A stretch of DNA of 31,918 nucleotides from a virus, in IMG/VR virus record IMGVR_UViG_3300029319_000270, positions 1-31,918 of that record. One strand, 5' to 3'. A program made the translations under genes and the position numbers. The notes beneath the pieces were generated by a model, which worked only from the letters and a program-made list of their open reading frames with translations, was not told where the DNA came from and did not search any database. Positions 1,701 to 25,374 of this stretch are shown here, piece by piece; the first letter of the stretch is position 1; every line of letters begins with the position of its first letter.

Positions 1701-1702
1701 TT

Positions 1703-1849: not shown

Positions 1850-1871
1850 ATACAGGACAATTCCTGTATTA
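1848..1871 (+). promoter_or_regulatory. Perfect hairpin at the gp25 translation start
   Basis: A 10-bp perfect inverted repeat (taatacagga / tcctgtatta) with a 4-nt loop (caat) occupies 1848-1857 and 1862-1871 and ends on the base before the gp25 ATG. The left arm contains the only Shine-Dalgarno-like AGGA (1854-1857). There is no T-tract after it, so a rho-independent terminator is unlikely. It could instead damp gp25 initiation on read-through transcripts, mark an RNA-processing site, or be an operator at the overlapping promoter-like box. Confidence 0.55.
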
Positions 1872-4312: not shown

Positions 4313-4318
4313 GTGTAG

Positions 4319-7300
4319 ATGAATATCAATAAAGTCTCACAGTCGATTGTAAATCAGACTCCTGCCTTTGTTGAGAACGATTATCCATTATTCAATAAAT
4401 TTATTGAGTATTACTATCGCTCTCAAGAGAAGACAGGTTTAGGTCAAAATATTCTCAACGAATTTTTACAATACCTCGATATCGATAAACTGAATATCGA
4501 TGTATTAGATGGTGCTACGAAAGTTGTAGAATCATTCACGACAACTGATGATGAAATTGTTGTAGAAAGTGTTGATCAGTTTTTAGAGAATGATGGATCA
4601 GTATTAATCGGTAATGAGGTAATATATTACGAAAAAACCACTCATGCACCAAATATTGCATTGAGTCCTGGTATTTCATACGAACAGGTAAAATTAAAGT
4701 GGACAAATCTTGCAAGTCCTATTGATTCTTTTGATGATTCTACAACTGCTTTTAATTTAACCTCTCAAGACAGTCCTATTGCTGCACCTTCAGCACAACA
4801 TCTTATTGTGTCTTTGTATGGTAAAGTATTAGTTCCAAATATTGATTATACAATTTCTGGAACACAAATTGTCTTTACTACTGCACCTAGAACAAGAATA
4901 CCTGCAGATGATGCTTCTTCAACCTACATTACATACTTAAGTGGTTTTGTAGAAAATCCAATCGTAGGTATTGATAATTTATCAAGTGCATTTGGTGGAG
5001 GAAAGACACAATTTACAATAACAAGAAATGGTACTAGATATGAACCAGTAGCAGATGAATATATTCTTGCAGTTTACGATAATCGTCTTTTAGTTCCTAA
5101 AGTTGACTTCTTTCTTGATGGTGACCAGTTTATTTTCTTAACTGCACCTCTAAACGGTCGTTTTCTTTCTTTATACTCTATTGAAGCACCGATCCCTTCA
5201 TTTGGTTCTAATGCTGTTGGTTATTCTCGTGTTAATGATGCAGGTGAGTTAACTAGCGTTTCAATAAACGCAAATGGTAGTAATTATAGATTTGAATATC
5301 CTCCTCAAGTGTCAGTAAACTCTGATGCAGGTAGTGGTGCGTCTGTAAGTAGTTTAGTTAATGGTATTAAGACAATATCATTAATTGATGGTGGTAAAGG
5401 TTACAGTGAAACCAATCCTCCCATTGTTCAAGTTCAAACTCCTACTAAACCAGGTTCTACAGCAGCAGTATTAAAGGCAACCGTTTCTAACGGTGCTGTA
5501 TCGGGTCTAGAAGTCCTTACTTCTGGTTCTGGGTATACATTTACCCCTAGAATCACTTTTAGGCAACCAGGCGGTGCTACACTAGGCACATGCCCTATTG
5601 TAAATGGTCAAGTAGTAGGAACTATTCCTATCACTGATGGTGGATTCGGATATACTACTGTTCCTACAGTTTATATCGATGAACCAACTGGAGTTAACGG
5701 TATTAGGGCAGCTTTAGAAGCAGTTTTAACTGATGGTGTAATTACATCAATCAATATCCTCAATGCAGGTCAAGGATATGAAACTACTCCTAGAATTGCT
5801 GTAATAGATCCTGTAGGTGCTCAAGTTCTTGAGACTACAGTTGATAATGACGGAAGAGTTATTGGAATCGAACTTTTAAATGGTGGTAGTGGATTTGATG
5901 ATATTCCTTCTGTTTATATCGTAGATAGTAGAACTGATGGACAAGGAAACTATGCAGGTGGAACTGGAGCAACTGCAACTGCTGCTATATTCAATGGTCA
6001 GATTACTGATATTAACGTAACTGCATTTGGTACTGGATATAGTCAAACTTCACCACCTAAAGTTGTAATTCAAAGTCCTCCAGAAGCAAGAGCATCTGCT
6101 GAGATTGGTTTAAACGAAGTTACTGGTTTTACAGTAAATCAAAAAGGAACGGGATATAGTAAAGCAAAATTTATTGGATGTGCTAGAGCAGCAAGTGGTA
6201 TTACCGATTATACTGAAGATGGTAATGCAGTATTCACAAATAATACTATTGCAGCAACTGGTGCTGTAGATGCGTCTGTAAAATGCCTTGATGCACTATT
6301 TGTTAAGAGATTACTAGACAAATATACAGAACAATACCTACCTGATGTTCCAGAACTTGATTACAAGAAAATTGATGTAAGAACATCAATTAAGACAATT
6401 AAAGACTTCTACATGGCTAAAGGAACCTCCTTTAGTATCAGTTATCTGTTTAAGTTACTTTATGGTGAGCAAGTAAGTATATCTTATCCTAAAGATCAAA
6501 TTATCAAACCATCTGCTGCAACATGGTCTATTGACACCATTTTGCGTGCAACTTTAGTCAGTGGAAATCCTGTTGACATCAGAGATGGTTTATTGACTCA
6601 AGATGCAGATATTGCAGATCCTAATATTAAAGCAGCGAGTGCTTTAGTTGAAAACTATATTTCTATTAAAACTTCTGATGTAGAAATTTTTGAATTAGTA
6701 TTATCAGAAGAAACTATCAATGGAACGTTTGTTGTTCCTTATAAAACAAAATTAGCAGAACCTCTCAACACAACTGAGTCCATTATTACTGTTGACTCTA
6801 CTATTGGTTGGCCAGAGAGAAATGGTGAGTTTATTATTGGTGGAACTGAGGTTGTTCAGTATAAAGAGAAATCATTAAACCAGTTTATTGAGTGTACTCG
6901 TTCTGTAAACAATATTGTAGAAGATTGGGATTCTGCTACAGAAGTAGCGTCTAGTTTCCAAGTTTTTGTTAATAAAGGAACTCCTCAAGAAGTTGTTTTA
7001 AAAGTTGTTGGTATTGTTGATGCACAACAGACAACTTTAACCGATACTGGTTCATATTACTTACCTGGTGATAAATTAACTGTTTCTAAGTTAGGTGGAA
7101 CAGGAATTTCTCCTGAGTTAACAACTTGGTTGTATAATGTTAAAAAGTTAATTTCAGTAACTGATATTTCATATGGTGGTGTTAATAATCAATCTGCAAC
7201 TGTAACTTGTTCTAATCCACATGGTCTTTTAGTTGGAGATCAGGTTACAATTTATGGTGCTAACCCAATTCTGTTCAATGGCACATTTGAAGTAACATCT

Positions 7301-10300
7301 AGAGATAGTACTACTGTATTCCAGTATCAATTACCTCAACCAGCAACAGTTGTTCCTCAAGGTAATATTCTAGTATCTGTTGACTTGAATAAAGGTAAAT
7401 CTGATGATACGCCAGTATTAAATTCTATTGGACCTTATACAACTAACGTTCAAAACTCATTCTTTAATACAGAATACGTTTATGTTGCTTCTACAGGTAT
7501 TCCTAACTACAAGATCGGACCTTTTCCTGGTTCTGCTCTTCTTCCTGGCAACCAACGTAAATTAAACAGATTTCCTCTTACACCTGTTACTATATCTACA
7601 AAAAACACTATCAATCCTGGTCCTATTGGAACTTGGGTAAATGGTGTATCAATTTGGTCTTACAAGTCTAGTATCAAGAAAACATTTGGTGCTGTAACTT
7701 CGATTGATATTACAAACGCAGGTTCTGGATATGATGCTGCATCTCCTCCAAATATTACTATCTCTGGTGGTAGTGGAACTGGAGCAACTGCATCTGTTGT
7801 TGTTAACGGTTCTATCTCTGAAATCACAGTTACAAACGGAGGTTCTGGGTATACATCTTCTCCTCTAGTTTCTATTGTTGGTGGAGGCGGTTCTGGTGCT
7901 GCTGCAACTGCAATTATTACTAAAGGTGTTGTATCTAGAATCTTAATTAATGATGGTGGAACAGGATATACATCACAACCTTCAATCACTATTGTTGGTG
8001 GTGGTGGACTTGGTGCGACAGGCACAGCAAACGTTAGAGGTCCTATTCAATCTATTGCTGTAAGTAGTGGAGGTTCTTCATATACATCTAAACCTAGTGT
8101 TGTTCTAAGTTCTGGTTCTGGTGCTGTAGCACAAGCGATTGTACAGAATGGTCGTATCATTTCTATCGCTATTATCTCTGCAGGTTCTGGATATACCACT
8201 GCACCTACAATTTCAATTCAAGGTGAAGGTTTTGGTGCTGTTGCAAGAGCAACTATTGATGTTGATGGTGAAAATGCAGGTAGAGTTACTGGTATTACAA
8301 TCATTAACAGAGGTATTGGATATACACAGGGAACAACAATTATTAATTTGACTTCAGTTGGTCAAGATGCTGCGTTTAATGCTAATGTATTTGAGTGGAC
8401 ATATAACTTACAAGAAACATCCACTTTAGATGCTGCTAAGGGTGGAGTGTTTGAAGGGTTTAATGCACAGTATGGTGGAGAATATGCACACCCATCTAAT
8501 CCTCAAACTTTAAGATATATTCTTGGTGACAACTTATTTAAGAATACACAACAGCAAATCAAAGAACAGGAAGATCAATTAGTTCACTCTCCTATTATTG
8601 GATGGGCATTTGATGGTAACCCAATCTACGGTCCTTATGGTTACTCTGATCCTACTGATCAAAACTCTTCGATTGCAAGATTGAATACTTCATATCGTTT
8701 AAAGACAGAACTTGTATATGATGCAAATACAAACCCATATCCTGTAAGAACTGCAGGTCCTCTTCTTACTGCAGAAGCAGCAGGTAGATTTGTTGAAGAT
8801 TATGAATATATTTTCAGTTTAGGTGATCTTGACCAGTACAATGGTCGTTTCTGTAAAACACCCGAATATCCTACAGGTAGATATTGTTACTTCGTTACTA
8901 TTGACACTACAGAAGATGGTAACCCACTTTTCCCATATATTCTCGGTCCTAGTTTTAACTCTGTTGTTGATAGTTGGAATCTAAATGCAGACGCTGTTCA
9001 GCAAAATATTCCTACTGGTGTTGTTAGATATCGTGATCCTTATGAGAACGTTGATATTGACGTTGAGAGGGCACCAAATGCCTCTACAAACGCTCTAACT
9101 ACCGAAGATGGAGATTTACTCCTATTTGAGATAGAAGACGAAGATAGAAGCGGTGTGATCGATCAAGCAGAGATTGATGATCCTGATCAAATCTTTGAAG
9201 AATCACCTTTACAACTTTTCGATTACTTCCCTAAAGTTAAACTTGATTCTAAGGTTGATATTGAAGTTGAAACTATTACTAAATTTGAAGATGCTTCTGT
9301 AACTGGATTTACTATTGAAAACCCAGGTGTATCTTATCAGGTTGATGACCGTTTAATATTTGATAACACTGGAACTGATGGAACAGGTGTATCTGCTCGT
9401 GTTTCAAGAATTGTTGGTGAAAGTGTTTTATCATACGGATTTGAAAATGTCAATGGTAATAACTTTGGTGTATTAAAAACTACTAATCCACATAACCTAG
9501 TTGCAGGTGATACTGTCTTTATTGACTATGAACCTATTATGAACAACACAAATAAAACATTTGTTGTTCGTCAATTTAAAGGTATTGAAGAAATTGTTGT
9601 AAATCAAACTGGTTCTGGATATAACAGTGATATTCCCCCAGTAATTACTATTGTTCCTAGAGATGGTGCAGGCACATCTGGTCATTTACAAGCAGTCGTA
9701 ACAAGTGTTGGTTCTATTGATACAGTTAATATCTTAAACTCTGGATCTGGTTACACACAAAATCCTCGTGTTATCTTATCACATCCTCAGATTTTTAAGA
9801 AGGCAGATTACTATGTGTCTAAGATTGAAAATCAAAATTATGTAAAAGTTAATGACGTAGTTGTTAACATCGATAAGGAAGTTTATATTTGCGGTATCAC
9901 TCAAGACGCAACTAATAATAAAGTTGGTTTTGTTGCAAAACTTTCTGCAACAGGTGTTAAAGAATGGGAGAAAACATTAGAAAGTACAGATGGAACTTAT
10001 TACACAGAATTCCAAAAACTTTATGTTGATGGCACTAGCATTTGGGTTGTTGGTAACAACAGACCAAATAGTTCTCTCCTTGATGCCTATAATCCTGATG
10101 TAATTCTTGCAAAATACACAGAGGCAGAAAATGGTCTAAGTGCTACGCTTAATTTACAGAAAGCATATGCAGGTATTTCTGGTGCAACTCGTGCAGATCA
10201 TGTAACTGCTCTTGAAAAATATTCTGACACTAGATTTATTATTGGTGGTTTTACTAATACTAACTCTGGTGCTCCTTATGATGCATATCTTGCTCTTGTT

Positions 10301-16300: not shown

Positions 16301-19300
16301 AAAGATAAAGTTGGAGATGGTTTCTTTGCTGCAGGTCAAGTAATTAGAACTACAGATACTAAAGCAGAAGTTATTGGATATAACCAAGCAAGAAGCACAA
16401 TTTATCTTGGTAAGATTGGTAGAACTAAATCAACAGGTGAAGATTATCACGTTGCAACATTTACTAAAGCAACAATCAATACTGCTAATAAGAAATTTGG
16501 ACAAGCATGTTTAGCATTAACACCTGGTCTTTCTGATCATACTTTTGTAAGTGGTGTCACTGATGCAATTACTGCGAGTGGTGGTGCTACAGGATCGTTT
16601 ACTGCTGCTACTGGAACTACTTACAATCCAGTAACGGGTGATATGGTTCTTGAGATTGGAACACATACTTTGACCACATCAAACACTGTAACTATCGCTG
16701 ATGGTGGTGTCACATTTACATGTGATCAAGATGGTAATGTTTCTGGTAAGGCATATCCCCGTTCAACTGATCCTGCCTCTGGATCTGCTCTTAATATCAC
16801 TGCAGTTACAGGAACTACAATTACAGTTAATGTAGGTGTTGCATCTCCAATAGATGAGTATATCAATATTCCTTCTTCTTCTGAATTTGCATTTGGATCT
16901 GATGCATTTACTATTGAGTGTTGGGTAAAACCATTATCTGCATCTCTAACAAGTGAAAGAAATATTATTGATATGAGAGCAAGTTCTGCTACTGAGGTTG
17001 CAGGTCGTTTGTATCTTAATGCTGCTCAGTTACGTTGGAATGTAAATGGTAGCGATCTTGTTAACACAGGTGCGACAGTACTTGCTGCTAATACTTGGTA
17101 TCATGTTGCAGTTGTTAAATCTTCTACAACTACTAAGATCTACATTGATGGTGTAGAAAGAGGAACAGGAACTGACTCTACCACATACACTGCTAAACCA
17201 ATTAGAGTTGGTATGGATTACGCAGGTGCTAATGGATTTGCAGGTTATATTGATGAATTAAGAGTATCAACTACAAACCGCTATACAGGTGCGTTCACTG
17301 CTCCTCTAGGGGTCTTCCAAGGTGATGCTAATACAAAACTACTATTCCACTTTGATGGTGCTAATGGAGACCAGTTTACACAAGATTGGTCTGGTACAAA
17401 TGACTTTACTAAGGGTGAAGACTTTAATAATGATGCCATACTTGAAACATCAAGATTAACTGGAACTCCTGCAGGTTTTGCTGCTAAATCTCAAAGATAT
17501 TATGACGCTGCTGATCTAATCATTGCAAATACAGACTTGATTAAGAAAGAAGTTGTATATCAAATGAGACAGAGATATCCTGAGTTAGTAATCTTAGGGA
17601 CTCGTTATACACCAACTGCTGCAACTTATGATGCTGCTACTGGTCTATTGTCTATGACAGTGACTGGTAACAGTCTAGAAAATGGTGGAACAATAACTCC
17701 TCAGACAGCAACATACGACGCTGCTACTGGTGTAATGGTAATCACTAAGTTGGCACATGGTCTTAAGAATGGTCAAAGAGTCAATATCAAGGTTGGTGGT
17801 ATCACGTTTACTTGTACACAAGATAGTAATGCTTCAGAACATTCATATCCAAGATCAACTGATCCTGTAGCTGGTAAATGGATAAAAGTTGCTAACGTAA
17901 CTGATCATACATTTGAAGTAAATGTTGGTGCATCTCAAGTTGGTCAACAATACGCACATACATTCGTTTCTGCTCTTGCTAATGCGATTACTGTTGAAAA
18001 AGACAGAATTAAGATTTTAGATAATGCATTAACATTCACATGTGCGATGGATGGTAATACTTCTAATAAAACTTATCCTCGCTCAACAGATCCTGCATCT
18101 AAAGATGTTGCTCTTCCAATCATATCTTCTAGTTCTACTAACTTAACAGTTAATGTAGGACCTTCTCCTCTAGTTAATTACCAACCATCTAACGCAACCT
18201 ACGATCCTGCAACTGGTGCATTTGTAATGACGATTGCTAATCATACAATCAATGTTGGAACACAAATTAGATTGACTGCAGACTCATTTACATTTACTTG
18301 CACACAAGATGGCAACAGTGCACAGAAGACTTATCCTCGTGCAACTGCTGGTGATGGATCTCCTGATCCTGCATACAATACTGCTCTTGATGTAACCGCA
18401 GTCGGTACAACTACACAAGATATCAGTAACGCAGCATACAATCCAGTAACAGGTATTTTGACTGTTGATACTAACTCTGCTCATGGATTAACTACAGGTA
18501 ATAGAATTCAAATCGCAGATGAATCACTGAAGTTTACTTGTGCTTATGATGGCAATGCAACTCAGCATGATTATCCTAGACAGACTGATCCTATTAGAGG
18601 TGAATGGATTGAAGTGACTGTTGTTGATAGTGATACATTTACTGTTGATATTGGAACCTCTAGTGACACTTCTACTCACTCATTTGTATCTGCAACTGCT
18701 GGTGCTTTAATCAAGCAAACTGGAACTGTAACTATCAACGTTGGTGTTTCTGCACAGGCAGATCAATATGCTCATACATTTGTATCTGCTGCAGCAAATG
18801 CAGTTGTTACTGGTGGTAACTACTTACATACATTTGTTTCTGCTGTTGATAACAGTGTCATTGGTGATGAAGGTATTAACTGTGAAGATGATATTCGTGA
18901 CACATTAAATGCAATCGTTCAAGATCTTCGTAACGGATCTAATAATCATATTTGGGATGCTGCATCTTACTACGTTAATAGAAATGTTAATCCAGTTACA
19001 ATCGCACAGATTGAACCTGCAGTTAAAGAAACATTATTTGCTTATGAAAAAGTTGATGATATGCTTCAGTACATCATCACAAATACTCTTTGGACAATTC
19101 AAGGTGATCATGGATTGACACAGAAGACTGATACTACAATTACAGATTCTTCTAATCCAACATACACATATTTCCAACCAACTGATGCAACTTACGATCC
19201 TGCCACAGGTGACATGGTGTTGACTATTGGTTCTCACTCACTTACCACTGCTTCTAGAGTTGACATTGCAATCGGTGGTATCACATTTACATGCACTAAA

Positions 19301-22300
19301 GATGGTAATGCGACTAACCATTCTTATCCTAGGGCAACTGATCCTGCTGCTAACGCTGTTCTTGCAGTTAAATCTGTTGTTGCAAACACATCTATTACAG
19401 TTAATGTAGGTAAATCTGGTCCTAATGATCAATATGCTCACACATTCGTTTCTGCTAATCAAAATGCTGTAAGAGTATTGGATTACACAACAAGTGATTG
19501 TGCAGACGTATTTACAACTGTTGGTAACTTAATTGATATTCTCACAGACACAATTACAAATGCATCTGCTAATCCAGCTGTTGATCATTTAGCAAGTGTT
19601 ACTAGAGTTGAACCAAAATATGAATTTGTTGGTGGAACTGTTGATTCGTACTTAGATACAGAATTTACTTCTACATATCAAGACACAACAAATGATATTC
19701 TTTACACTAATCAAATTGATCTTGACACTAGAGCTAGATTTAGAGATTCTGCAAGATTAATTCGTTCTAATCGTTCTGTAATTGTTGATAAAGCAGCTGC
19801 TGATATGTTGGCAAGATATCCTGCTCTTGCTCAGGATATGCCTAGAAACCAAAATGGTGGTAGCACAGATGGAACATTACGTTGTAAGACTGACCTTGGA
19901 CTAATCCTTGATGGTCTTGCTGATGATGTAGAGAATGATGGTAATTTAGGAACTGTTACTGCTGCTAAGTTCTACATTGGTAATAGCGGTGAGTTATTAC
20001 ATATTCGTTTACAAGTATTCCAGTCAGTTTATGCTCATGAGCGTCTTGCTGAGTATGCTAAACAAGCAGTTCTAGGAACTTTAGATTATACAAATACTGA
20101 TAATATTATTGTTGGAAATTGGGGTGTTGCTGGTGCAGGTACTCCTAATTACTTTGATGCTGTTACCACTTACATTGATACTCTTGTTACAACTATCAAT
20201 GATATTATTGCTCCTACAGGTAATGATTTTGAGATTGGTGCTGATAGACTTTACTTTAATAGAGATTGGATCACTGATGAAACAACTGCATACACAACAA
20301 TTAATTTCCAGTATTCACTTAACGGTGTAAATTATAATGCATTTACATATGGTGCTGGTGAGCAATTACTTGCTAGAAATGCTCTTGAGGATCTTCTTTT
20401 AGCTGTTATCTCTGATCTCCAAACAGGTGGAACTAACTCTACCATTCAAGAAATGGAGAAATATTTGAATGCAAACTTGACTATTAATAATACTGTTATT
20501 GCTGAGAAAGCACTTGCTGCAAGAATCTACTCTATTGAAAAACTGAAGACTATTGGTGAATATGCAATTAAGAACTATGCATATTCATTATCTGAAGCTC
20601 CAGTAGCATCTCCTAATTATGCTGCGATTTACACAGGAGAAGTAGCTTACAGAGATACTGAAAGTCCTGGTGATATTAACGCTGTAGCATTTAGATTCAA
20701 AGAGTTAATTGATATTGCAGTGAACATTCTTGCACCAGGTAAAAATATTGCTAGAAGTGCTGCTAAGAATATTCAATATAATACAAACTATTATAAGAAT
20801 GAAATTTCAAACCAAGTTAATGCTCAGTTTGGAACTGGTGCTTGGGTATATGATGACTTTATTGATGAGTTAGTTGATAACTTTGTATCTGATAGTATTA
20901 CAACTGATGTTACTAAAACGTCTGATGCATATACAATTACCTTAAGTGCACAAAATGGAACTGACTTTATTGTAGGTGAAGTTGTTACTTCTAGTGGTGG
21001 TGGAATTGCAACAGTACTAGAATGGGATTCTGAAAATGATTTATTATATGTCGGACCATTTACTTCAACTGCATGGGTAGCAACAAACACTCTAACTGCT
21101 CCTAGTGGTGCTACAGGAACGATTGCAAGCGGTGGTGTAAGTAGTGCTTATACTTGGTATACTGAAGCTTCAAACGTTGAGTATCTTAAGAGTGCAAGAT
21201 CTATTACTAGCAACATTGCAGGTCAAGTTTCTGGAACTAATCTTTGGACTAATCCAGAAGCATTTGGAACTAACTGGACTGAAACTAATCTTACTAGAAC
21301 AGATAATGCTTTCGCTGGTCCTGACGGAACATTAACTGCAGAAAAATATGTTGGACAAAATGGTGTAGCAGGTAATCATATCTTACATAGAGACTTTAAC
21401 TTAACTGCTTTTGAAACCTTTGATACTGATGGTGTTAAGTTTGACTCTACAGGTGAAACCTTTGACACTGGTTCTACTAGCGATGTATCTCAAACATTCA
21501 CTGCATCTGTATTCTTTAAAGCAGTTGGATCACAATCTGTTAGATTTAAGTTACAACTTGATCAAGGACAAGCAGGTGAGCAAAATATATTCTTTGATCT
21601 AAATCTTACTAATGGAACTATCGGATCTCTATTCATACCTCAACTCGGTATTACTGGAGATGCTTACGGTGCAATTCCTTATGGTAATGGTTGGTATAGA
21701 GCATATATTACAGCAACATTCTCCTTCGGTTTCTCATCTCTTAGAACTCAAGTAACAGTCAATAGTTCTGCAGGTTCTCAATCTTGGACTGGAGACGGAA
21801 CTACTGGTGTATATTTCTGGGGTGCTAAACTCAATAAGGGTGCTGTTGATCCATATACAGCAGTTGGTGGTCAAATATTCTATGCTAATACTGAGTACAA
21901 TATCAAGAATTACACTATAGATCTATTAGAAGGATATATGGGTCAAGCACTTGATGGCACATTAACATCTCCTTCACCAAATGCAGGTTTCTATAGTTAC
22001 TATGATTCTACTGCAGCGAGTGACTATGCAAAGATTTCTATTCAAAGACTTCTTAGATATGGATTAAATATCATCCGTAATCAACTTAATGTTGATACTT
22101 ACTATACAACTATTACACAAGTTAATGGTATTTCTGTTCCTACTAAGACATACGGAACTAGAGATATTCCTGTTGGTGTTTCTGGTGGATTAACTTCTTC
22201 AGATTACATTTATGGAACTGTAAGTAGTCAATATGCTGAAATAGAAAGTGTACTTGAAAACTCTGGTAAAGTTGTTCAAGTTTATCAGAGATTCCGTATT

Positions 22301-24130
22301 GATGGTGATATCACAGACGGTCCTTTTACTATGAATGAAGTTGTTGCTAAACAAGGTAATCCTTCTGTTACTGGTGTTGTATATGGTTTCTTTGAAGATG
22401 AAAACTATAAATATCTTGATGTTCGTATAACTGCAGGTCCTTGGGCAGTAGCAGATAATATTGTTGGTGCTAATAATTCTACAACAGCACAAATTAGTGC
22501 AGTTGAAGATAGACTTCATATTATTGATCTTAAAGGTGCTTTTGCTGATAATATTCCATTCAAGGGATATACATCAGGTGCAACTGCAACACCTACATCA
22601 TTCATTAAATCTGAAGCAGCAATCATTGATAATACTGGTGGTAAATTAACTGTTGATACTGCATCTTTATTAGGAACATTTGAAACAACTACTGTTGTTT
22701 ATCCAGAATCTTCTAGACAGTATTTGGATGTTGTTAAGTTCTCTGGTCTTGATATATCCGTTGGTGATAGAATTGCATCCACAGGATATAAGAGACTTGG
22801 TATTTCTATTATAAGTGGATTGAATGTATTTGCTGAAGGTAATAGACTTTATAAAGTTAACTCAGGTATTCAAGATACAAGTACGTATGCGATTATTACT
22901 GAAGTTGACCTTGATAACAATTTCATTTACATCGCAGAATATCAAGGAACATTTACCAATGGTGACATAATTGGTGATTATGGTGTTGGTGCAAGTTTCC
23001 CTGTAGGATATGCTTCTGTTCTAACTGCAACTGTAACTGCAGGTCAGGCAGCTGGTCTCGTTCAAGACATTCGTGATGTTGGACTTAATAAGAGATTATA
23101 TCTTAGTGATGTTGTAGGAACATTTGATGATAAAGATGGACTCAAAGGACCAGATTCTTATGGATCTGTAATTATTGGTAAGGTTGAACTTAAAGCTCGT
23201 GTCAAACGTTCCTTTAGAGGATTTGATGGAGTACAAACTACATTCAAACTTACTACAGATAATGGAACTCAGTATCTACCAGATCCTGCAGGTCATCTAT
23301 TAGTATTTGTCAATGGTATTCTACAACCACCAGGTGCTACTAACGCATATACAGCGTTCTCTGATACTATTCAGTTTACTGAAGCACCTGATCTTGGAGC
23401 ATCGTTTACAGGATTCTATGTTGGTAAACTTAGACAGTTAGATGATATATCATTTGAGTTTGATTCATTACGTCAGTCATTTAACTTGAAACGTAATGAT
23501 GTATTCTACTCACTAACTCTTACAGAGGGTGTACAATCTAGTGTTATCAGACCTGAGAATAATATCATCGTTTCTCTTAATGGTGTTATTCAAGAACCAG
23601 GCGTTGGTTTTGAGATTGTTGGTTCTAGAATCATCTTCTCTGAGATTCCTAGATTTGGATCAACCTTCGTTGCATTCTCTTATGTTGGTTCTGAGGCAGA
23701 CGTTGATGCTGCTGAAGTTATTCCACCAATCGAACCTGGTGACTTTATTGATATTCAAGGTGAGACAGCAGATAGACAAGTTGCTGTTATTGAATCTTCT
23801 AACTCCTTGATCACATTCGATTATCTCGGATCTGTATTTGGTCAAGGTGCTGTTGGTCAATCAGTAATTACCTCAGGATTTATTAAGAATGTTCAAGTAA
23901 CATCTGGTGGATCTGGTTATACATCAAGACCTACTGTTAGACTTGATTCTATATCTGGTTTTGAAGGAAATATTAAGGCACTTGTTGGGGTAGCAGGTGT
24001 TGAAATGAGTGCTGCAGGTTCTGGATATCAAAATCCTGCAATCAATGTCGAGACTACAGTTCCAGATGATTGGACTGCTCCTGACCTTTCATTGTATGGT
24101 GAAGAGTTAGTAGACCCCGAAACCCCATAA
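4319..24130 (+). CDS. Giant (6,603-residue) mosaic baseplate/tail protein at the gene 7 position
   Basis: A single uninterrupted frame of 19.8 kb, product roughly 0.7 MDa. Modules in order (approximate residues): family N-terminus with PAFVENDYPLFNKFIEYYY at 15-33; two short beta units (LIVSLYGKVLVPNIDYTI-type) at 140-300; GSGY repeats 300-620; conserved helical module with IKTIKDFYMAKGTSFS around 690-710; GSGY repeats 1122-1345; YHYH domain 1360-1550; EF-hand-like loop 1607-1618; probable beta-propeller 1828-2205; LamG-like 2210-2420; GSGY repeats 3003-3237; conserved QDSYYYQDFSY/VHPASF module 3452-3490; TFTC repeats and a second LamG 4070-4357; helical units and more TFTC repeats 4390-5550; jelly-roll-like domain 5635-5860; C-terminal beta units ending with two GSGY repeats. 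Gene order (25, 6, this, then 8) puts it where T4 has gp7 (1,032 residues), but homology to gp7 cannot be shown by eye. An alternative is a fused baseplate-rim and fibre protein. There is no signal peptide or Shine-Dalgarno; ATG lies 6 nt after the gp6 stop. Confidence 0.9.
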   Translation: MNINKVSQSIVNQTPAFVENDYPLFNKFIEYYYRSQEKTGLGQNILNEFLQYLDIDKLNIDVLDGATKVVESFTTTDDEIVVESVDQFLENDGSVLIGNEVIYYEKTTHAPNIALSPGISYEQVKLKWTNLASPIDSFDDSTTAFNLTSQDSPIAAPSAQHLIVSLYGKVLVPNIDYTISGTQIVFTTAPRTRIPADDASSTYITYLSGFVENPIVGIDNLSSAFGGGKTQFTITRNGTRYEPVADEYILAVYDNRLLVPKVDFFLDGDQFIFLTAPLNGRFLSLYSIEAPIPSFGSNAVGYSRVNDAGELTSVSINANGSNYRFEYPPQVSVNSDAGSGASVSSLVNGIKTISLIDGGKGYSETNPPIVQVQTPTKPGSTAAVLKATVSNGAVSGLEVLTSGSGYTFTPRITFRQPGGATLGTCPIVNGQVVGTIPITDGGFGYTTVPTVYIDEPTGVNGIRAALEAVLTDGVITSINILNAGQGYETTPRIAVIDPVGAQVLETTVDNDGRVIGIELLNGGSGFDDIPSVYIVDSRTDGQGNYAGGTGATATAAIFNGQITDINVTAFGTGYSQTSPPKVVIQSPPEARASAEIGLNEVTGFTVNQKGTGYSKAKFIGCARAASGITDYTEDGNAVFTNNTIAATGAVDASVKCLDALFVKRLLDKYTEQYLPDVPELDYKKIDVRTSIKTIKDFYMAKGTSFSISYLFKLLYGEQVSISYPKDQIIKPSAATWSIDTILRATLVSGNPVDIRDGLLTQDADIADPNIKAASALVENYISIKTSDVEIFELVLSEETINGTFVVPYKTKLAEPLNTTESIITVDSTIGWPERNGEFIIGGTEVVQYKEKSLNQFIECTRSVNNIVEDWDSATEVASSFQVFVNKGTPQEVVLKVVGIVDAQQTTLTDTGSYYLPGDKLTVSKLGGTGISPELTTWLYNVKKLISVTDISYGGVNNQSATVTCSNPHGLLVGDQVTIYGANPILFNGTFEVTSRDSTTVFQYQLPQPATVVPQGNILVSVDLNKGKSDDTPVLNSIGPYTTNVQNSFFNTEYVYVASTGIPNYKIGPFPGSALLPGNQRKLNRFPLTPVTISTKNTINPGPIGTWVNGVSIWSYKSSIKKTFGAVTSIDITNAGSGYDAASPPNITISGGSGTGATASVVVNGSISEITVTNGGSGYTSSPLVSIVGGGGSGAAATAIITKGVVSRILINDGGTGYTSQPSITIVGGGGLGATGTANVRGPIQSIAVSSGGSSYTSKPSVVLSSGSGAVAQAIVQNGRIISIAIISAGSGYTTAPTISIQGEGFGAVARATIDVDGENAGRVTGITIINRGIGYTQGTTIINLTSVGQDAAFNANVFEWTYNLQETSTLDAAKGGVFEGFNAQYGGEYAHPSNPQTLRYILGDNLFKNTQQQIKEQEDQLVHSPIIGWAFDGNPIYGPYGYSDPTDQNSSIARLNTSYRLKTELVYDANTNPYPVRTAGPLLTAEAAGRFVEDYEYIFSLGDLDQYNGRFCKTPEYPTGRYCYFVTIDTTEDGNPLFPYILGPSFNSVVDSWNLNADAVQQNIPTGVVRYRDPYENVDIDVERAPNASTNALTTEDGDLLLFEIEDEDRSGVIDQAEIDDPDQIFEESPLQLFDYFPKVKLDSKVDIEVETITKFEDASVTGFTIENPGVSYQVDDRLIFDNTGTDGTGVSARVSRIVGESVLSYGFENVNGNNFGVLKTTNPHNLVAGDTVFIDYEPIMNNTNKTFVVRQFKGIEEIVVNQTGSGYNSDIPPVITIVPRDGAGTSGHLQAVVTSVGSIDTVNILNSGSGYTQNPRVILSHPQIFKKADYYVSKIENQNYVKVNDVVVNIDKEVYICGITQDATNNKVGFVAKLSATGVKEWEKTLESTDGTYYTEFQKLYVDGTSIWVVGNNRPNSSLLDAYNPDVILAKYTEAENGLSATLNLQKAYAGISGATRADHVTALEKYSDTRFIIGGFTNTNSGAPYDAYLALVDTSGNFALKRKIASANASEKITDIIINGTDVYFSMETATSANATAVNASFGKATIGTNAITVAWIKEYTNTLYSFIDVACCIDEFEEVYITSTLRLKSNNTTRDSFWVGKVDTDGDLIWNYRYLVSGGQISMAGKCSIDIFGDLNVTFGKTATSDSLKTTESVKIGYDGAIKNHTTNQFNLNNIEGITPYGIATDNSGDVHIFGQSSWNRNEFIFPFTSGSNADTTGHYTLTSTSTNNSITYADNVAKIFGYQTGQTSWTQANLQITSAQLGTKLGDNWTLEMMLYKDSTTTSLSQTQQTIFAIGDAEDATGGLWLYYDMSSGHLELAVTNQTTKLNSASSALQSGSTTMFANNSWQFISLVKNGNTFTAYVNGLQALTGTVANTSLGGKDLYVGNIPGRSTTAGQFRSNEQGTYYVDNLRLRNRAVTPTVPSDVTTFPTVGLFGFTFDWVDDAWFTTNLNQYDYIDYTGWGIKVDKNADAARIGTQTLQTNTQVGFIRTNVTPVTGSTLTMVTTGYALGDAGFQNLDFDDATTTMSQDTETLTYTQDVWSSRTATVPSPGSQKLSVTAVVKDRYYFKVTPTLKIDNVQELTLNQSFRFTTGAKLRLNNDSGQFVNSGYIVNQDTTNNKIYVAINNNAWSNDTNTGLLVTEQFSEQSSYGIVGPIPNDVNEIVGYTFPQINNTTPGTFDINLNDYNHPEGGSNNLDELAKFKPHSDIDYSIRIDEVAAGSPFIVGSVVFITSSDISFNAAYTTAQITNLTAVLKITLVANLTKRLQVSSVANSDEVYVITSNSHYLNPGEMLFIDGNPSVEQGGVTYDEYDGSFPVDRVISSKEFVYKLPQAAVTSPATTGSSVNIFVKSPVIKMYNGHQYLFDLSHSSMVGGNLSFSKDNLNKLEYSFNSIERVGTPGVTGEGVPNPTVKLKVDNTIVTNISYYFDPSRTGTDSPIVEGSYLDVTNSPYLGNFVITSTSGQTITRGADTFKFSLINEPEGDADITQTSYTTSSVKAVGSIGAVRIVNSGGFYTRLPIVSSIQSNRQIERVAINTPGTEYAVGVYNGVPIGGDGEGGLVQITVSDGTDDEGGVIPGQISEVVVTSPGKGYTTATIDIEAIDGILGAGLTGSGAELEVVIPAFGSGASIFTKGDKVGKIKKLKNNNFGYDYPHDYTLRPEITFPINAQLTSTSILASITVTNPGSGYSQAPTVVITGGGGTGAVAESTIRNGRLDQIIVKDPGSGYSSTPTVALRSAFNYVVNLDLGLLQFAFPHGITNGSAVTVTVTDTGSGADFPLAAGAVGRLNSTTTYYAIAGTANSLEDDQLKLALTPANAELGDALSFVNAGEGRQTVLTESFGGAATANVITSTFLEGELVYQGDSLETATAQGFVSTNQGWQIGPRVLKIVDYTGDFSQGQKVTGVISKSSGTISDLNIAKGVLEIGSITKTTGQFIDDVGKPSEIIQKIQDSYYYQDFSYAIKSAVSIGEWKDILIKNVHPASFKVFGELNLSDYGSIPNKTTDFSITKSVELAREAIVPNIQNFALVEPVYSEFNNTEVLFRQKRLTSSENILTSVVQRLDDISNLFDGERISFPLTVNTDNVVANANQLMIVLNGVVQNPGTSFQIQGDSIVFSEPPQPPASIKYVNVSINQIATKDLSFTNISGIFPLVGNTLVGTVSLARLTVTKVVGDVVSGFITQGTFVVGELVNVGATGFAANIAAVTDVTSNGLYAFGETVTNLTGETAIVEQINLATGQETPLAQLRYTIGPSTTSIEVVAYKTNNATADQVVPDNTFVATKNYQFGSEIFRVDSITNGSESTTLGVTRAQSGTAASSQQEDVPVYGTDIQVTGALTLSKTAGTYQSTPGLFDIQLNDYIIGASSGVVSQITATSAYQDPATQEFISQVNISEGSSFFGLLFNRITSQTYPNVVLDNISQSQVSIVQFQNNTTAFDFDFPNNEILNSYVIPYDNLVTGPIQQDETIRNYKLDYGNSSGDFNVGEICNVRKLAFKDKVGDGFFAAGQVIRTTDTKAEVIGYNQARSTIYLGKIGRTKSTGEDYHVATFTKATINTANKKFGQACLALTPGLSDHTFVSGVTDAITASGGATGSFTAATGTTYNPVTGDMVLEIGTHTLTTSNTVTIADGGVTFTCDQDGNVSGKAYPRSTDPASGSALNITAVTGTTITVNVGVASPIDEYINIPSSSEFAFGSDAFTIECWVKPLSASLTSERNIIDMRASSATEVAGRLYLNAAQLRWNVNGSDLVNTGATVLAANTWYHVAVVKSSTTTKIYIDGVERGTGTDSTTYTAKPIRVGMDYAGANGFAGYIDELRVSTTNRYTGAFTAPLGVFQGDANTKLLFHFDGANGDQFTQDWSGTNDFTKGEDFNNDAILETSRLTGTPAGFAAKSQRYYDAADLIIANTDLIKKEVVYQMRQRYPELVILGTRYTPTAATYDAATGLLSMTVTGNSLENGGTITPQTATYDAATGVMVITKLAHGLKNGQRVNIKVGGITFTCTQDSNASEHSYPRSTDPVAGKWIKVANVTDHTFEVNVGASQVGQQYAHTFVSALANAITVEKDRIKILDNALTFTCAMDGNTSNKTYPRSTDPASKDVALPIISSSSTNLTVNVGPSPLVNYQPSNATYDPATGAFVMTIANHTINVGTQIRLTADSFTFTCTQDGNSAQKTYPRATAGDGSPDPAYNTALDVTAVGTTTQDISNAAYNPVTGILTVDTNSAHGLTTGNRIQIADESLKFTCAYDGNATQHDYPRQTDPIRGEWIEVTVVDSDTFTVDIGTSSDTSTHSFVSATAGALIKQTGTVTINVGVSAQADQYAHTFVSAAANAVVTGGNYLHTFVSAVDNSVIGDEGINCEDDIRDTLNAIVQDLRNGSNNHIWDAASYYVNRNVNPVTIAQIEPAVKETLFAYEKVDDMLQYIITNTLWTIQGDHGLTQKTDTTITDSSNPTYTYFQPTDATYDPATGDMVLTIGSHSLTTASRVDIAIGGITFTCTKDGNATNHSYPRATDPAANAVLAVKSVVANTSITVNVGKSGPNDQYAHTFVSANQNAVRVLDYTTSDCADVFTTVGNLIDILTDTITNASANPAVDHLASVTRVEPKYEFVGGTVDSYLDTEFTSTYQDTTNDILYTNQIDLDTRARFRDSARLIRSNRSVIVDKAAADMLARYPALAQDMPRNQNGGSTDGTLRCKTDLGLILDGLADDVENDGNLGTVTAAKFYIGNSGELLHIRLQVFQSVYAHERLAEYAKQAVLGTLDYTNTDNIIVGNWGVAGAGTPNYFDAVTTYIDTLVTTINDIIAPTGNDFEIGADRLYFNRDWITDETTAYTTINFQYSLNGVNYNAFTYGAGEQLLARNALEDLLLAVISDLQTGGTNSTIQEMEKYLNANLTINNTVIAEKALAARIYSIEKLKTIGEYAIKNYAYSLSEAPVASPNYAAIYTGEVAYRDTESPGDINAVAFRFKELIDIAVNILAPGKNIARSAAKNIQYNTNYYKNEISNQVNAQFGTGAWVYDDFIDELVDNFVSDSITTDVTKTSDAYTITLSAQNGTDFIVGEVVTSSGGGIATVLEWDSENDLLYVGPFTSTAWVATNTLTAPSGATGTIASGGVSSAYTWYTEASNVEYLKSARSITSNIAGQVSGTNLWTNPEAFGTNWTETNLTRTDNAFAGPDGTLTAEKYVGQNGVAGNHILHRDFNLTAFETFDTDGVKFDSTGETFDTGSTSDVSQTFTASVFFKAVGSQSVRFKLQLDQGQAGEQNIFFDLNLTNGTIGSLFIPQLGITGDAYGAIPYGNGWYRAYITATFSFGFSSLRTQVTVNSSAGSQSWTGDGTTGVYFWGAKLNKGAVDPYTAVGGQIFYANTEYNIKNYTIDLLEGYMGQALDGTLTSPSPNAGFYSYYDSTAASDYAKISIQRLLRYGLNIIRNQLNVDTYYTTITQVNGISVPTKTYGTRDIPVGVSGGLTSSDYIYGTVSSQYAEIESVLENSGKVVQVYQRFRIDGDITDGPFTMNEVVAKQGNPSVTGVVYGFFEDENYKYLDVRITAGPWAVADNIVGANNSTTAQISAVEDRLHIIDLKGAFADNIPFKGYTSGATATPTSFIKSEAAIIDNTGGKLTVDTASLLGTFETTTVVYPESSRQYLDVVKFSGLDISVGDRIASTGYKRLGISIISGLNVFAEGNRLYKVNSGIQDTSTYAIITEVDLDNNFIYIAEYQGTFTNGDIIGDYGVGASFPVGYASVLTATVTAGQAAGLVQDIRDVGLNKRLYLSDVVGTFDDKDGLKGPDSYGSVIIGKVELKARVKRSFRGFDGVQTTFKLTTDNGTQYLPDPAGHLLVFVNGILQPPGATNAYTAFSDTIQFTEAPDLGASFTGFYVGKLRQLDDISFEFDSLRQSFNLKRNDVFYSLTLTEGVQSSVIRPENNIIVSLNGVIQEPGVGFEIVGSRIIFSEIPRFGSTFVAFSYVGSEADVDAAEVIPPIEPGDFIDIQGETADRQVAVIESSNSLITFDYLGSVFGQGAVGQSVITSGFIKNVQVTSGGSGYTSRPTVRLDSISGFEGNIKALVGVAGVEMSAAGSGYQNPAINVETTVPDDWTAPDLSLYGEELVDPETP
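5218..6180 (+). repeat. GSGY repeat block 1 of the giant protein (about 8 units)
   Basis: Encoded units of about 35-45 residues share the pattern: short beta strand, Gly-x-Gly-Tyr (GKGYSE, GSGYTF, GFGYTT, GQGYET, GSGFDD, GTGYSQ, GTGYSK), then Pro-x-V/I-x-I strand, Gly/Ala loop, and a nG-x-I/V-x-x-I strand. The units are diverged rather than identical, so they are old. The block lies between the N-terminal signature and the KDFY module. Confidence 0.8.
6270..6560 (+). other. Conserved helical module of the giant protein (KDFYMAKGTS)
   Basis: Residues about 651-747. It holds FVKRLLDKYTEQYLPDVPELDY, then K695-D696-F697-Y698 followed by AKGTSFSISYLFKLLYGEQ and SYPKDQI. I recognise this R/K-D-F-Y-x-x-K-G-T pattern, together with the residue 15-33 signature, from large structural proteins of marine T4-like phages. 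These two segments define the family to which the N-terminal half belongs. Confidence 0.65.
7685..8350 (+). repeat. GSGY repeat block 2 of the giant protein (6 units)
   Basis: Six consecutive units: GSGYDAAS, GSGYTSS, GTGYTSQ, GSSYTSK, GSGYTTA and GIGYTQG. Each has a P-x-I/V-x-I strand and a GGGGxGA loop. This is the most regular array in the window and the best template for a profile of the repeat. Two isolated units follow at about 9600-9780 (GSGYNSD, GSGYTQN). Confidence 0.85.
8400..8960 (+). other. YHYH domain within the giant protein
   Basis: Residues about 1360-1550. The first half has SPIIGWAFDGNPIYGPYGY. The second has LDQYNGRFCKTPEYPTGRY, then FPYILGPSFN. These are the characteristic YHYH-domain segments (D-G-x-P-I-Y-G-P and Y-N-G-R-F-x-x-T-P-E-Y-P). 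The tetrapeptide that names the family is Y1522-C-Y-F1525 here, so both His are replaced. The domain's biochemical role is not known to me. Confidence 0.75.
9137..9172 (+). other. EF-hand/dockerin-like calcium loop in the giant protein
   Basis: Residues 1607-1618 read DEDRSGVIDQAE. This matches the 12-residue EF-hand loop pattern (D at 1, D at 3, S at 5, G at 6, I at 8, D at 9, E at 12). It lies in a strongly acidic linker after the YHYH domain. Only one loop is visible, so calcium binding is an inference. Confidence 0.5.
9800..10935 (+). other. Probable beta-propeller domain in the giant protein
   Basis: Residues about 1828-2205 contain repeated short motifs of the kind 'evYicGi... vGFVAKLsatGvkeWekt', 'IWVVGNN... 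DVILAKYT', 'FIIGGFT... DAYLALVDTSGNF', 'VYITSTL... FWVGKVDTDGDLIWNYRYL' and 'VHIFGQSSW'. The recurrence of a beta strand plus Gly, then a vaKld-G-W strand is typical of SBBP/PQQ-like propeller blades. The number of blades is not certain (five to seven). Confidence 0.6.
10945..11580 (+). other. LamG/concanavalin-like domain 1 in the giant protein
   Basis: Residues about 2210-2420: NWTLEMMLYKD, GLWLYYDMSSGHLEL, SWQFISLVKNGNTFTAYVNG, then YVDNLRLRNRAVTP. These are the standard strands of the LamG/ConA-like jelly roll. Such domains often bind glycans in phage fibres, but no ligand can be named. Confidence 0.65.
13325..14030 (+). repeat. GSGY repeat block 3 of the giant protein (diverged)
   Basis: Four looser units: GGFYTR, GKGYTT, GSGYSQA and GSGYSST. 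Acidic and Gly-rich loops between them (GGDGEGG, DGTDDEGG) are not seen in block 2. The block precedes the QDSYYYQ module. Confidence 0.65.
14640..14800 (+). other. QDSYYYQDFSY / VHPASF module of the giant protein
   Basis: Residues about 3441-3494 contain IQKIQDSYYYQDFSYAI (Tyr 3455-3457) and VHPASFKVFGEL (His 3482). I associate this pair of motifs with the distal part of the same marine phage protein family whose N-terminus opens this gene. Here more than 3,100 residues follow it. Confidence 0.55.
16440..17390 (+). other. LamG-like domain 2, interrupted by a TFTC repeat
   Basis: The opening strand (ATINTANKKFGQACLAL, about base 16465) and the rest of the fold are in one frame. The rest is YINIPSSSEFAFGSDAFTIECWVKP, then WYHVAVVKSSTTTKIYIDGVERG, then GYIDELRVSTTNRYTG, from about base 16858. 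Between them lies one HTFVSG/TFTC repeat (about 16530-16855). Without the insert the LamG fold would be continuous. Confidence 0.6.
17480..20950 (+). repeat. Duplicated helical units in the giant protein, with TFTC insertions
   Basis: Unit part 1 occurs at about 17494-17610 (RYYDAADLI...MRQRYPEL) and 19735-19830 (RFRDSARLI...MLARYPAL). A trace appears near 20750 (IARSAAKNI). Part 2 occurs at about 18876 (INCEDDIRDTLNAIVQDL), 19877 (LRCKTDLGLILDGLADDV) and 20375 (ALEDLLLAVISDL). Each part 2 is followed by a helix like YAHERLAEYAKQA, IYSIEKLKTIGEYAI or FAYEKVDDMLQYI. These are diverged copies of one alpha-helical module. Confidence 0.6.
17623..18870 (+). repeat. TFTC/HTFVSA repeat array in the giant protein
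   Basis: About four to five diverged units share ATYDPATG-x-x-V/M-T-I, a glycine turn, F-T-C-x-x-D-G/S-N, three to five residues, Y-P-R-x-T-D-P, a T-V-N-V-G strand and a QYAHTFVSA end. FTC/YPR pairs occur near bases 17807, 18037, 18290 and 18530. A related unit precedes LamG 2 (16617-16860) and another lies at 19178-19475. Each unit carries a single Cys. Confidence 0.75.
21220..21900 (+). other. Jelly-roll/carbohydrate-binding-like domain in the giant protein
   Basis: Residues about 5635-5860: NLWTNPEAFGTNWT, TFTASVFFKA, GNGWYRAYITATF, then GVYFWGAKLNKGAVDPYTAVGG. The N-x-W opening, the W-Y/R-R strand and the closing 'G-V-Y-x-W-G-A-x-L-x-x-G' strand are typical of phage-fibre jelly-roll domains related to carbohydrate-binding modules. 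The ligand is unknown. Confidence 0.5.
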
Positions 24131-24153: not shown

Positions 24154-25374
24154 ATGGCTAAACAATCCCTAGGTCTTGGAGCATCAGCTAATGATAACAC
24201 AGGTGATACCCTGAGAGCTGGTGGTGACAAGATTAACGACAATTTTAATGAGATATATACCGCTATTGGTAACGGTACAAATTTGAATATCTCTTTATCT
24301 AATCCTGCCAGTGGTCAGGTTCTTAGATATAATGGTTCAACATTTTTACCTTCAGACTATAGTGCACTAACTACATCTCTGGATGTAGCAGGTTATTCTA
24401 TTATATCCTCTTCTAATGGTAATATAAATCTCAATCCGAATGGAACTGGTAATGTATTAATTAATAATGGAAGTATTGTTAACACTTTTAATGGAACTAC
24501 AGGAGTTGTAGACTTTCCAACAAAGATTCAATATAAAAATGAGTATGATGCTTTAGGAAATGCACCAGCTGCTGCATCTTACACTGGATACTTTTTTACT
24601 GTTGATGGTGACGATAATCCATATGTTAACATCAACATAACAGCTGGTGGTGTTGGTGATACCAGAGCAAAACTTCTTACTGAATATTCTAGTATTGATG
24701 CACTAAGTGACGTAGATATTACAACAGTAGCACCAACTGCTAACCAGATTTTAAAGTGGAATGGATCAGCATTTACACCAGCTGATGAGACTGGTGGTGG
24801 TGCTGCATCACAGAACATCTTTGCATCCGTAGCGGGTGATACTGGTTCAACAACTGCTGACAGCACAAGTGATACCTTAACTATTGCAGGTGGAACTAAT
24901 ATTACAACAGCAGTTTCTGGAGACACACTCACAGTTAACTTCAGTGGATCGTTATCTACGACTCTTGCTGCTCTTACTGATACAGATGTTTCTGGTATTA
25001 CTCAAGGTGATTCGCTCTTTTATAATGGAACTAATTGGACTGTTACTAGATCTCCTATTACATGGTGGGAGTTGACTGCACCTGACGCATCTGGTTATAA
25101 CTTTACAGGACCAGGTTTCGCGGCTGCGACAGCAGATCCTACTTTATATGTTATGAGAGGAATGACATATGCTTTTGATAACAATGCTGGTGGTGCACAC
25201 CCATTTAGAATTCAAAGCACACAAGGTCTAACAGGAACTCCATATACTACAGGTCAGACTGGTAGTGGAACTTCAGTTCTTTATTGGACTGTTCCTATGG
25301 ACGCTCCTAATACACTGTATTATCAGTGTACAATTCACGCAGCGATGGCTGGTCAAATTAACGTAGTTTCATAA
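24154..25374 (+). CDS. Tail-fibre-like protein with a C-terminal cupredoxin domain
   Basis: 406 residues. The N-terminus SLGLGASANDNTGDTLRAGGDKINDNFNEIY is a module common at the start of marine phage fibre and baseplate-attached proteins. Three copies of a fibre repeat follow: GQVLRYNGSTFLPSDY, NQILKWNGSAFTPADE and DSLFYNGTNWTVTR, the last two preceded by LSDVDI/LTDTDV. The C-terminal ~95 residues look like a cupredoxin: a strand TLYVMRGMTYAFDNN, then H349 in GGAHPFRI, and finally C392, H395 and M398 in YYQCTIHAAMAGQI. The Cys-x2-His-x2-Met spacing equals that of amicyanin's type 1 copper site, and the His-to-Cys distance (43) is near amicyanin's 39. All four ligands are present. Copper binding and any redox or adhesion role are inferences. 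ATG 24154 is the first in frame after a stop; no clear Shine-Dalgarno, but a late-promoter-like box lies just upstream. Confidence 0.85.
   Translation: MAKQSLGLGASANDNTGDTLRAGGDKINDNFNEIYTAIGNGTNLNISLSNPASGQVLRYNGSTFLPSDYSALTTSLDVAGYSIISSSNGNINLNPNGTGNVLINNGSIVNTFNGTTGVVDFPTKIQYKNEYDALGNAPAAASYTGYFFTVDGDDNPYVNINITAGGVGDTRAKLLTEYSSIDALSDVDITTVAPTANQILKWNGSAFTPADETGGGAASQNIFASVAGDTGSTTADSTSDTLTIAGGTNITTAVSGDTLTVNFSGSLSTTLAALTDTDVSGITQGDSLFYNGTNWTVTRSPITWWELTAPDASGYNFTGPGFAAATADPTLYVMRGMTYAFDNNAGGAHPFRIQSTQGLTGTPYTTGQTGSGTSVLYWTVPMDAPNTLYYQCTIHAAMAGQINVVS

Follow-up and report, generated by a model that had tools for sequence, protein, structure and literature searches.

The window analyzed here is the whole of the IMG/VR virus record IMGVR_UViG_3300029319_000270 (31,918 bases), and most of it is occupied by one giant open reading frame (ORF), which was identified by sequence and profile comparison as encoding the T4-type baseplate wedge protein gp7. 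We consider it probable that a gp7 core was inflated here by domain gain, and that a single chain both anchors the baseplate wedge and carries host-contact arms. The ORF was located as follows.

4319..24130, forward strand: giant gp7 ORF with an ATG start and 6,603 codons (6,603 amino acids), 62.07% of the record, matching the family phrog_701 from end to end.

The product had a molecular mass of 706.5 kDa and a predicted isoelectric point of 4.5, both computed from the translation. The gp7 core was delimited by comparison with compact relatives of 466-601 amino acids from ACP17, Mendera, pf16, and IMG/VR contigs, which are encoded directly 3' of gp6 where annotated. These compact gp7s (phrog_26741; 482, 503, and 523 amino acids in ACP17, Mendera, and pf16, respectively) had the full core of three blocks, A, B, and C, with a GGSGY-type repeat between B and C, and were devoid of the large expansions. 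A hidden Markov model (HMM) of 19 compact sequences and 572 positions detected all three blocks in the single chain of the giant, in the same order as in the compact gp7s.

4328..4489, forward strand: core block A, N-terminal helices, residues 4-57 (compact HMM positions 5-58, E = 6.4e-7; predicted to be helical, with a predicted local distance difference test score (pLDDT) of 40-46).
6287..6766, forward strand: core block B, three helices followed by the start of a beta-domain, residues 657-816 (HMM positions 65-209 at residues 667-816, E = 9e-20).
14606..14809, forward strand: core block C with the motif YYQDFSY.IKS...W...HPASF, about residues 3430-3497 (compact HMM).

Block C lay within one HMM match spanning residues 3176-3497 (E = 3e-18), in which a repeat module came first and block C followed, and PF23786 matched residues 680-728 of block B with 30.1 bits (cut-off, 27). 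None of 12 other baseplate and tail proteins contained block A, block C, or the core of block B, four of them matching in the repeat-module part only, and 15 shuffled versions of the giant gave no match to the compact HMM. Among 17 gp7s, block B was found in all, over a length range of 482-7,312 amino acids. Block A was found in 16, with E values of only 0.19 in S-CRM01 and 0.093 in S-CAM7 and no match in HTVC008M, and block C was found by the HMM in 16, the exception at that setting being T4 gp7.

Profile searches of the PDB led to the same protein. A profile of 20 compact sequences retrieved T4-type gp7 with E values of 5.3e-11 and 5.1e-9 (T4 residues 652-833), the other five rows having E values of at least 0.17. 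A profile of residues 1-1066, made of 45 cyanophage sequences with no compact row, retrieved the same two T4-type gp7s (E = 1.3e-5 and 2.9e-5); the third row had an E value of 0.9, and nothing else was significant. A sequence-only reading made earlier had guessed from the position of the ORF that it was gp7 and had named a profile search of residues 1-900 against T4 gp7 as a check; the order of the blocks and the PDB matches bore out this guess, and the check succeeded when run with residues 1-1066. T4 gp7 itself matched the compact family phrog_26741 (E = 1.7e-5). The T4-specific Pfam domains Gp7_5th, Gp7_6th, and Gp7_helical matched T4 gp7 and were absent from the window giant; because accepted relatives, phiM12 among them, did not have them either, these domains mark the T4 subgroup. 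The NCBIfam model TIGR02242 matched only phiM12, ACP17, and Mendera, below its cut-off, and was not used. Single-protein queries of IMG/VR with the gp7s of Mendera and pf16 retrieved four loci and one locus, respectively. T4 gp7 (1,032 amino acids; PDB 5hx2 and 5iv5) resembled the giant in having blocks A and B at residues 651-829, a weak block C at 860-902, and a fold match in its domain V, whereas its 650 extra residues stand before the core and not inside it, and it had neither a lectin-like domain match nor the C-terminal arm of 3,100 amino acids.

According to one report (PMC7029224), pelagimyophages and cyanomyophages have no T4 gp7 and use VrlC in its place. If so, the giant would be not gp7 but a fibre or adhesin gene in the gp7 slot, and the overall similarity between the giant and T4 gp7 is indeed tiny. 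However, the core blocks and the PDB profile matches argue against this replacement, and the rule that gp7 is missing wherever VrlC is present was contradicted by the window, ACP17, Mendera, phiM12, and HTVC008M, each of which carried both gp7 and a VrlC-type gene; we therefore regard it as very improbable. In HTVC008M, the ORF after gp6 (L344:5983-9033), beside the VrlC gene, matched block B with an E value of 7.2e-25 and block C with one of 4.2e-11. This ORF and its family phrog_3465 are labelled 'head closure Hc2', and are gp7 by position and by blocks B and C. The family phrog_701 is filed under 'head and packaging', though it is a baseplate wedge family.

The giant ORF was real and intact, with coding constraint along its whole length. 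The longest open frame obtained by chance in 50 first-order Markov resamples of the window was 163 codons. In comparison with the S-SM1 orthologue over 6,167 aligned codons, 2,572 of 4,401 nucleotide differences (58%) were at codon position 3. The giant was also divided into tiles of 300 codons, 23 in all. In each of the 21 tiles with enough aligned codons, differences from S-SM1 were most frequent at position 3 (share 0.44-0.73); the uncounted tiles were residues 4501-4800, without an S-SM1 counterpart, and the last one, which had 2 codons. We also inspected 80 environmental loci centred on giant residues 3332-3631, in which the sequence was limited by the locus edges. Within the sequence that each locus contains, no upstream in-frame stop occurred inside the giant gene in 79 of the 80 loci; downstream, no locus had a stop before 8,199 nucleotides, 34 had one at 8,199-10,107 nucleotides, and 46 were open to the locus edge. 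The sole locus with an in-frame stop inside the gene, L134, had it 5,337 nucleotides upstream of the match, as a split gene, a sequencing error, or a real variant. The gene was a single coding sequence (CDS) for 3,884-7,312 amino acids in eight isolates: S-SM1, P-SSM4, P-SSM2, Syn9, S-SZBM1, Bellamy, S-CAM7, and S-CAM9. The earlier claim of a 6,603-codon gene over 62% of the window thus agreed with the frame, the resamples, the constraint relative to S-SM1, the isolates, and the loci.

An assembly or annotation artefact joining several genes might be suspected from P-RSM1 (NC_021071), in which the gene appears as two CDSs (positions 1-3556 and 161120-177190, flagged as partial), and from shorter PHROG families that cover parts of the giant. 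The gene in P-RSM1 is split because the linear record opens inside gp7, and this opening point may explain the shorter families; natural gene fission had been suspected for phrog_19630 and phrog_18802, and in P-RSM1 at least the split was the opening point of the record. Misassembly was dropped as an explanation because the same frame was open in independent isolates and contigs and was constrained along its length, and we assign practically no weight to an artefact. Counts of promoter-like sites within the ORF (57; shuffled expectation, 80.4) and of terminator-like sites (12; shuffled expectation, 8.2 with a standard deviation of 2.5) made no case for internal units.

The giant is an ordinary, slightly longer member of a gp7 family of marine T4-like cyanophages that was already on record, because P-SSM4 and P-SSM2 carry it as gp7 and phage records match both of its ends. 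Seven overlapping pieces of the giant matched phrog_701 (6,136 positions) from profile position 1 to 6134. Among 50,697 phage records, 476 matched the first 1,000 residues, 290 of them across 80% or more of the query, and 322 matched the last 1,000 residues, with 279 reaching this coverage; nearly all were from cyanophages. By gp6 identity, the nearest named relative among the 17 phages compared was S-SM1 (82%), followed by P-SSM4, Syn9, and S-SZBM1. The S-SM1 protein SSM1_102 (YP_004322993; Synechococcus phage; 6,180 amino acids) agreed with the giant in position and start, and the two were 85% identical in residues 1-1000 and 79% identical in the final 1000. The hypervariable segment of the window protein, at about residues 4425-4900, was largely missing from SSM1_102. 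This S-SM1 protein carries the RefSeq note T4-LIKE GC: 969, and T4-GC969 is reported as a virion structural protein from mass spectrometry of purified S-SM1 (Sullivan 2010, PMC3037559); SSM1_102 was counted as a virion protein for this reason. In S-CREM2, compared here by description, 91 unique peptides are reported for a 5,814-nucleotide ORF after the gene pair ORF120/ORF121 (PMC10665884). The annotated gp7s of the Prochlorococcus phages P-SSM4 (7,312 amino acids) and P-SSM2 (5,195 amino acids) had the same position and the A/B/C core, with expansions longer or shorter than those of the window protein. The expectation that the giant would be among the larger phage proteins was not supported in the sense of an exceptional size, the P-SSM4 orthologue being longer.

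In Sullivan 2010 (PMC3037559), T4-GC969 is listed as Synechococcus-enriched, and large proteins such as gp7 are said to be divided among many clusters. Because the window protein, which is close to that of S-SM1, aligned with the P-SSM4 protein (T4-GC397) at 59% identity over 5,130 residues, T4-GC969 and T4-GC397, the latter from a Prochlorococcus phage, seem to be a single orthologous gene that divergence has separated into two clusters.

The core made up only a small part of the giant: blocks A, B, and C together comprised about 282 residues (4.3%), and three expansions accounted for 96%. Across the family, gp7 length varied from 466 to 7,312 amino acids around the constant core. The expansions and the elements recognized in them were as follows.

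4490..6286, forward strand: expansion 1, all-beta, residues 58-656 (about 600 amino acids), inserted between blocks A and B, which abut in compact gp7s.
6767..14605, forward strand: expansion 2, between blocks B and C, residues 817-3429 (about 2,610 amino acids; represented by about 275 compact-HMM positions).
7688..8368, forward strand: five overlapping GGSGY-type repeats, residues 1124-1350 (iterated HMM).
8384..8908, forward strand: YHYH domain PF14240, residues 1356-1530 (E = 3.4e-32).
11087..11587, forward strand: ConA/laminin-G-like domain 1, residues 2257-2423 (PF13385, E = 7.1e-9, 36.4 bits against a cut-off of 27.6).
13844..14050, forward strand: GGSGY-type repeat before block C, residues 3176-3244, in the order seen in compact gp7.
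14810..24127, forward strand: expansion 3, C-terminal arm of 3,106 amino acids, residues 3498-6603 (represented by about 16 compact-HMM positions).
16853..17272, forward strand: ConA/laminin-G-like domain 2, residues 4179-4318 (PF13385, E = 1.5e-24 and 1.7e-26, 93.6 bits against 27.6).
17519..19018, forward strand: hypervariable zone of tail-fibre-like repeats, residues 4401-4900 (median tile identities 31-44; phrog_5342; mostly absent from S-SM1).
23219..23818, forward strand: most conserved block outside the core, with two NG-PG repeats, residues 6301-6500 (identities of 93-95% with S-SM1, 88-89% with P-SSM4, and 75-77% with S-SZBM1).

Such a very long chain could also be a polyprotein, cut during assembly to release the gp7 core and leave the arms as separate fibres, and T4-like phages do carry a prohead protease. 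However, block C stands as far along the chain as residues 3430-3497, and compact gp7s hold A, B, and C in one chain; therefore, the cuts would have to spare residues 1-3500, and we give this explanation little credence.

Repeats were counted with iterated HMMs, whose scores include the copies that built each model, self-BLAST of the giant having given no rows. The GGSGY-type beta repeat occurred in 21 copies in the window proteins (13 in gp7, 5 in the gp10-like protein, 2 in gp8, and 1 in the first ORF, 1-1155), with no match in 45 shuffled proteins; five of the gp7 copies were in expansion 1, at residues 309-591. The NG-PG repeat was found in four copies in the window, and the YPR repeat in seven copies at residues 4101-5052 (4465-4830, with further copies at 4101-4192 and 4958-5052). 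PF13385 matched 30 of 30 aligned members at ConA/laminin-G-like domain 1 and 21 of 21 at domain 2, in alignments filtered at 80% identity, which kept 29 of 71 rows for domain 1 and 20 of 37 for domain 2 and to which the window's own stretch was added, and the two domains aligned with each other with an hhalign probability of 95.7. The fibre- and adhesin-like content that the sequence-only reading had ascribed to the ORF was therefore present, in the form of two ConA/laminin-G-like domains, tail-fibre-like repeats, and a YHYH domain, for which receptor binding is a putative function. Expansion 1 was absent in Bellamy, S-CAM9, S-CAM7, and P-SSM2, in which block B started near residues 148-171 (171-298 in P-SSM2); Bellamy-type phages were without residues of about 110-610.

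Conservation was scored in 100-residue tiles against the relatives. It peaked at block B, around block C, and at residues 6301-6500, the last of these in comparison with S-SM1, P-SSM4, and S-SZBM1. The lowest conservation was at residues 4401-4900, and most of residues 2001-2500 had no counterpart in S-SZBM1. With S-SZBM1, the identity at residues 6301-6500 (75-77%) was higher than that of block B (52%).

The AlphaFold model of a 592-residue compact relative had a pLDDT of 77.1 and a predicted template modelling score (pTM) of 0.52. Its helices formed one run at residues 12-113; therefore, expansion 1 of the giant falls between the helices of one helical region. The best matches of the compact model were three T4-type gp7 chains (Z = 11.2, 11.0, and 8.2), with a root-mean-square deviation of 17-18 Å that probably came from differently placed domains. 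The next match was a 190-residue phi812 baseplate chain (Z = 8.1, 113 aligned residues, 3.8 Å), and because it spanned model residues 76-582, blocks B and C appear from the model to belong to one small fold with an inserted middle. The model of residues 1-1066 of the window protein consisted of four helices at residues 3-53, an all-beta region up to about residue 656 apart from two short helix turns, three helices at 657-715, and beta structure thereafter. With VIA-align, the following domain was matched to T4-type gp7.

6518..7042, forward strand: beta domain matching T4 gp7 domain V, residues 734-908.

The best PDB chain for the window model was gp7 of 9f4a, on which residues 734-908 aligned at 763-851 with a Z of 9.2 (88 aligned residues, 3.9 Å), only modestly higher than the Z of 8.5 for the next unrelated chain. 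Residues 737-906 aligned with gp7 of 5iv5 at 765-849 (Z = 8.8, 84 aligned residues, 3.3 Å). The gp7 fold match of the window model comprised domain V only, its helical part being of low confidence. A small beta domain at about residues 807-879 lay within this match, and its rows included the P22 coat I-domain and the GP4 portal-tail protein.

Several results weigh against a gp7 core that carries host-contact arms. The window model was poor (mean pLDDT, 59.4; pTM, 0.33), the pLDDT of block A and of the block B helices was mostly below 60, and packing of block A on block B across the insertion of about 600 residues was not seen in this low-confidence model of residues 1-1066. The narrow lead of the domain V match over the unrelated chain belongs to the same side, as does the weak alignment of T4 gp7 residues 860-902 with block C, which was in order and gave 3.3 bits. 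The strongest competing view gives the expansions of the gp7 core an architectural role only: they would enlarge the baseplate, perhaps into a double-layered one, or serve as braces for gp8, gp10, or VrlC, and host contact would fall to separate fibres. The GGSGY-type module is common to gp7, the gp10-like protein, gp8, and the first ORF, as if it were a shared interaction fold; residues 6301-6500 are the most conserved outside the core, which favours a structural function of the C-terminus; lectin folds have structural uses as well; and VrlC is linked to double-layered baseplates in the published literature. On the other hand, residues 4401-4900 are hypervariable and largely absent in S-SM1, which is typical of exposed host-contact parts, and both lectin-like domains are in variable zones. 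We consider purely architectural arms unlikely, and an inflated wedge protein with host-contact arms the better explanation.

How such an inflated gp7 could work is suggested by the Vibrio phage XM1. In published work, T4 gp7 and its XM1 orthologue are part of a (gp6)2-gp7 wedge module, one per wedge, and the XM1 orthologue gp17 (242 amino acids) is reported to hold the tail spikes with one loop and its C-terminus (PMC10457771). In XM1, compared here by description, each wedge has one gp17 in a module of the (gp6)2-gp7 type, and the spikes are a separate protein, gp18. XM1 gp17 was absent among the structural-match rows of the window and compact models. In the giant, blocks A, B, and C would assemble with two gp6 in each wedge as in T4, and the expansions would extend outward at the rim of the baseplate, forming six arms of about 0.7 MDa each. 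By analogy with XM1, the variable lectin and repeat zones may touch the cyanobacterial surface, and this contact would couple binding to the contraction-triggering wedge. Six copies of the giant at 706.5 kDa each, a copy number taken from the XM1 wedge count, amount to 4.2 MDa. This whole scheme, including the receptor role of the expansions, is inferred. Insertion would be tolerated behind the N-terminal helices, in the stretch from block B to block C, and at the C-terminus, and whole spike-like arms may have been taken up at these sites.

The other genes of the window were as follows.

1..1155, forward strand: baseplate wedge subunit, cut at the record start (phrog_719).
1155..1700, forward strand: PAAR-motif protein (phrog_281).
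1872..2291, forward strand: gp25, baseplate wedge or sheath initiator (PF04965, phrog_261).
2291..4312, forward strand: gp6, baseplate wedge (PF21379, phrog_219).
24154..25374, forward strand: gp9-like wedge or tail-fibre connector (PF07880, phrog_677).
25378..29541, forward strand: wedge subunit in the gp10 position with a YHYH domain (phrog_708).
29578..31110, forward strand: gp8, baseplate wedge (PF09215, phrog_438).
31110..31916, forward strand: N-terminal part of a VrlC-type protein, truncated by the end of the record (DUF4815, phrog_358; VrlC is the S-SM1 name).

Genes for gp25, gp6, and the giant followed one another in that order, with the giant directly 3' of gp6 in the wedge cluster, and the gene order of S-SM1 was the same as that of the window. 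The sequence-only reading had set the giant between gp6 and gp8, which was right on the gp6 side; on the other side, the direct downstream neighbour was the gp9-like gene, and gp8 came three genes on. In Bellamy, S-CAM9, S-CAM7, and P-SSM2 (loci L008, L009, L012, and L339), expansion 1 and the gp9-like and gp10-like genes between gp7 and gp8 were all absent, so that in P-SSM2 gp8 adjoins gp7; it is possible that expansion 1 and these two genes were gained together. A search of the window's own genome with the T4 portal gave no match, and as control genomes also gave none, this was uninformative.

The giants themselves were already known, with their build only loosely understood, and the A/B/C anatomy of giant gp7 was not found in print in the open-access literature; what is gained is the anatomy of core and expansions and the corrected naming. 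The printed claim of a missing gp7 replaced by VrlC is removed, and the labels 'head closure Hc2' and 'head and packaging' are corrected. A testable anatomy of core, added parts, and variable parts is thereby given to a protein that ranks among the longest in abundant marine viruses. We tentatively suggest, as one possibility, that the wedge itself has incorporated the receptor-binding layer, with gp7 as the scaffold, and that host range would evolve by exchange of segments within a core assembly protein and not by way of a detachable fibre. If this is true, each baseplate would display 12 lectin-like domains, two on each of six chains, and the giant could be the XM1 arrangement, with its 12 separate spikes on a gp7 orthologue, fused into one chain. 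The anatomy marks where to seek the host-contact parts of cyanomyoviruses, which have so far been poorly known.

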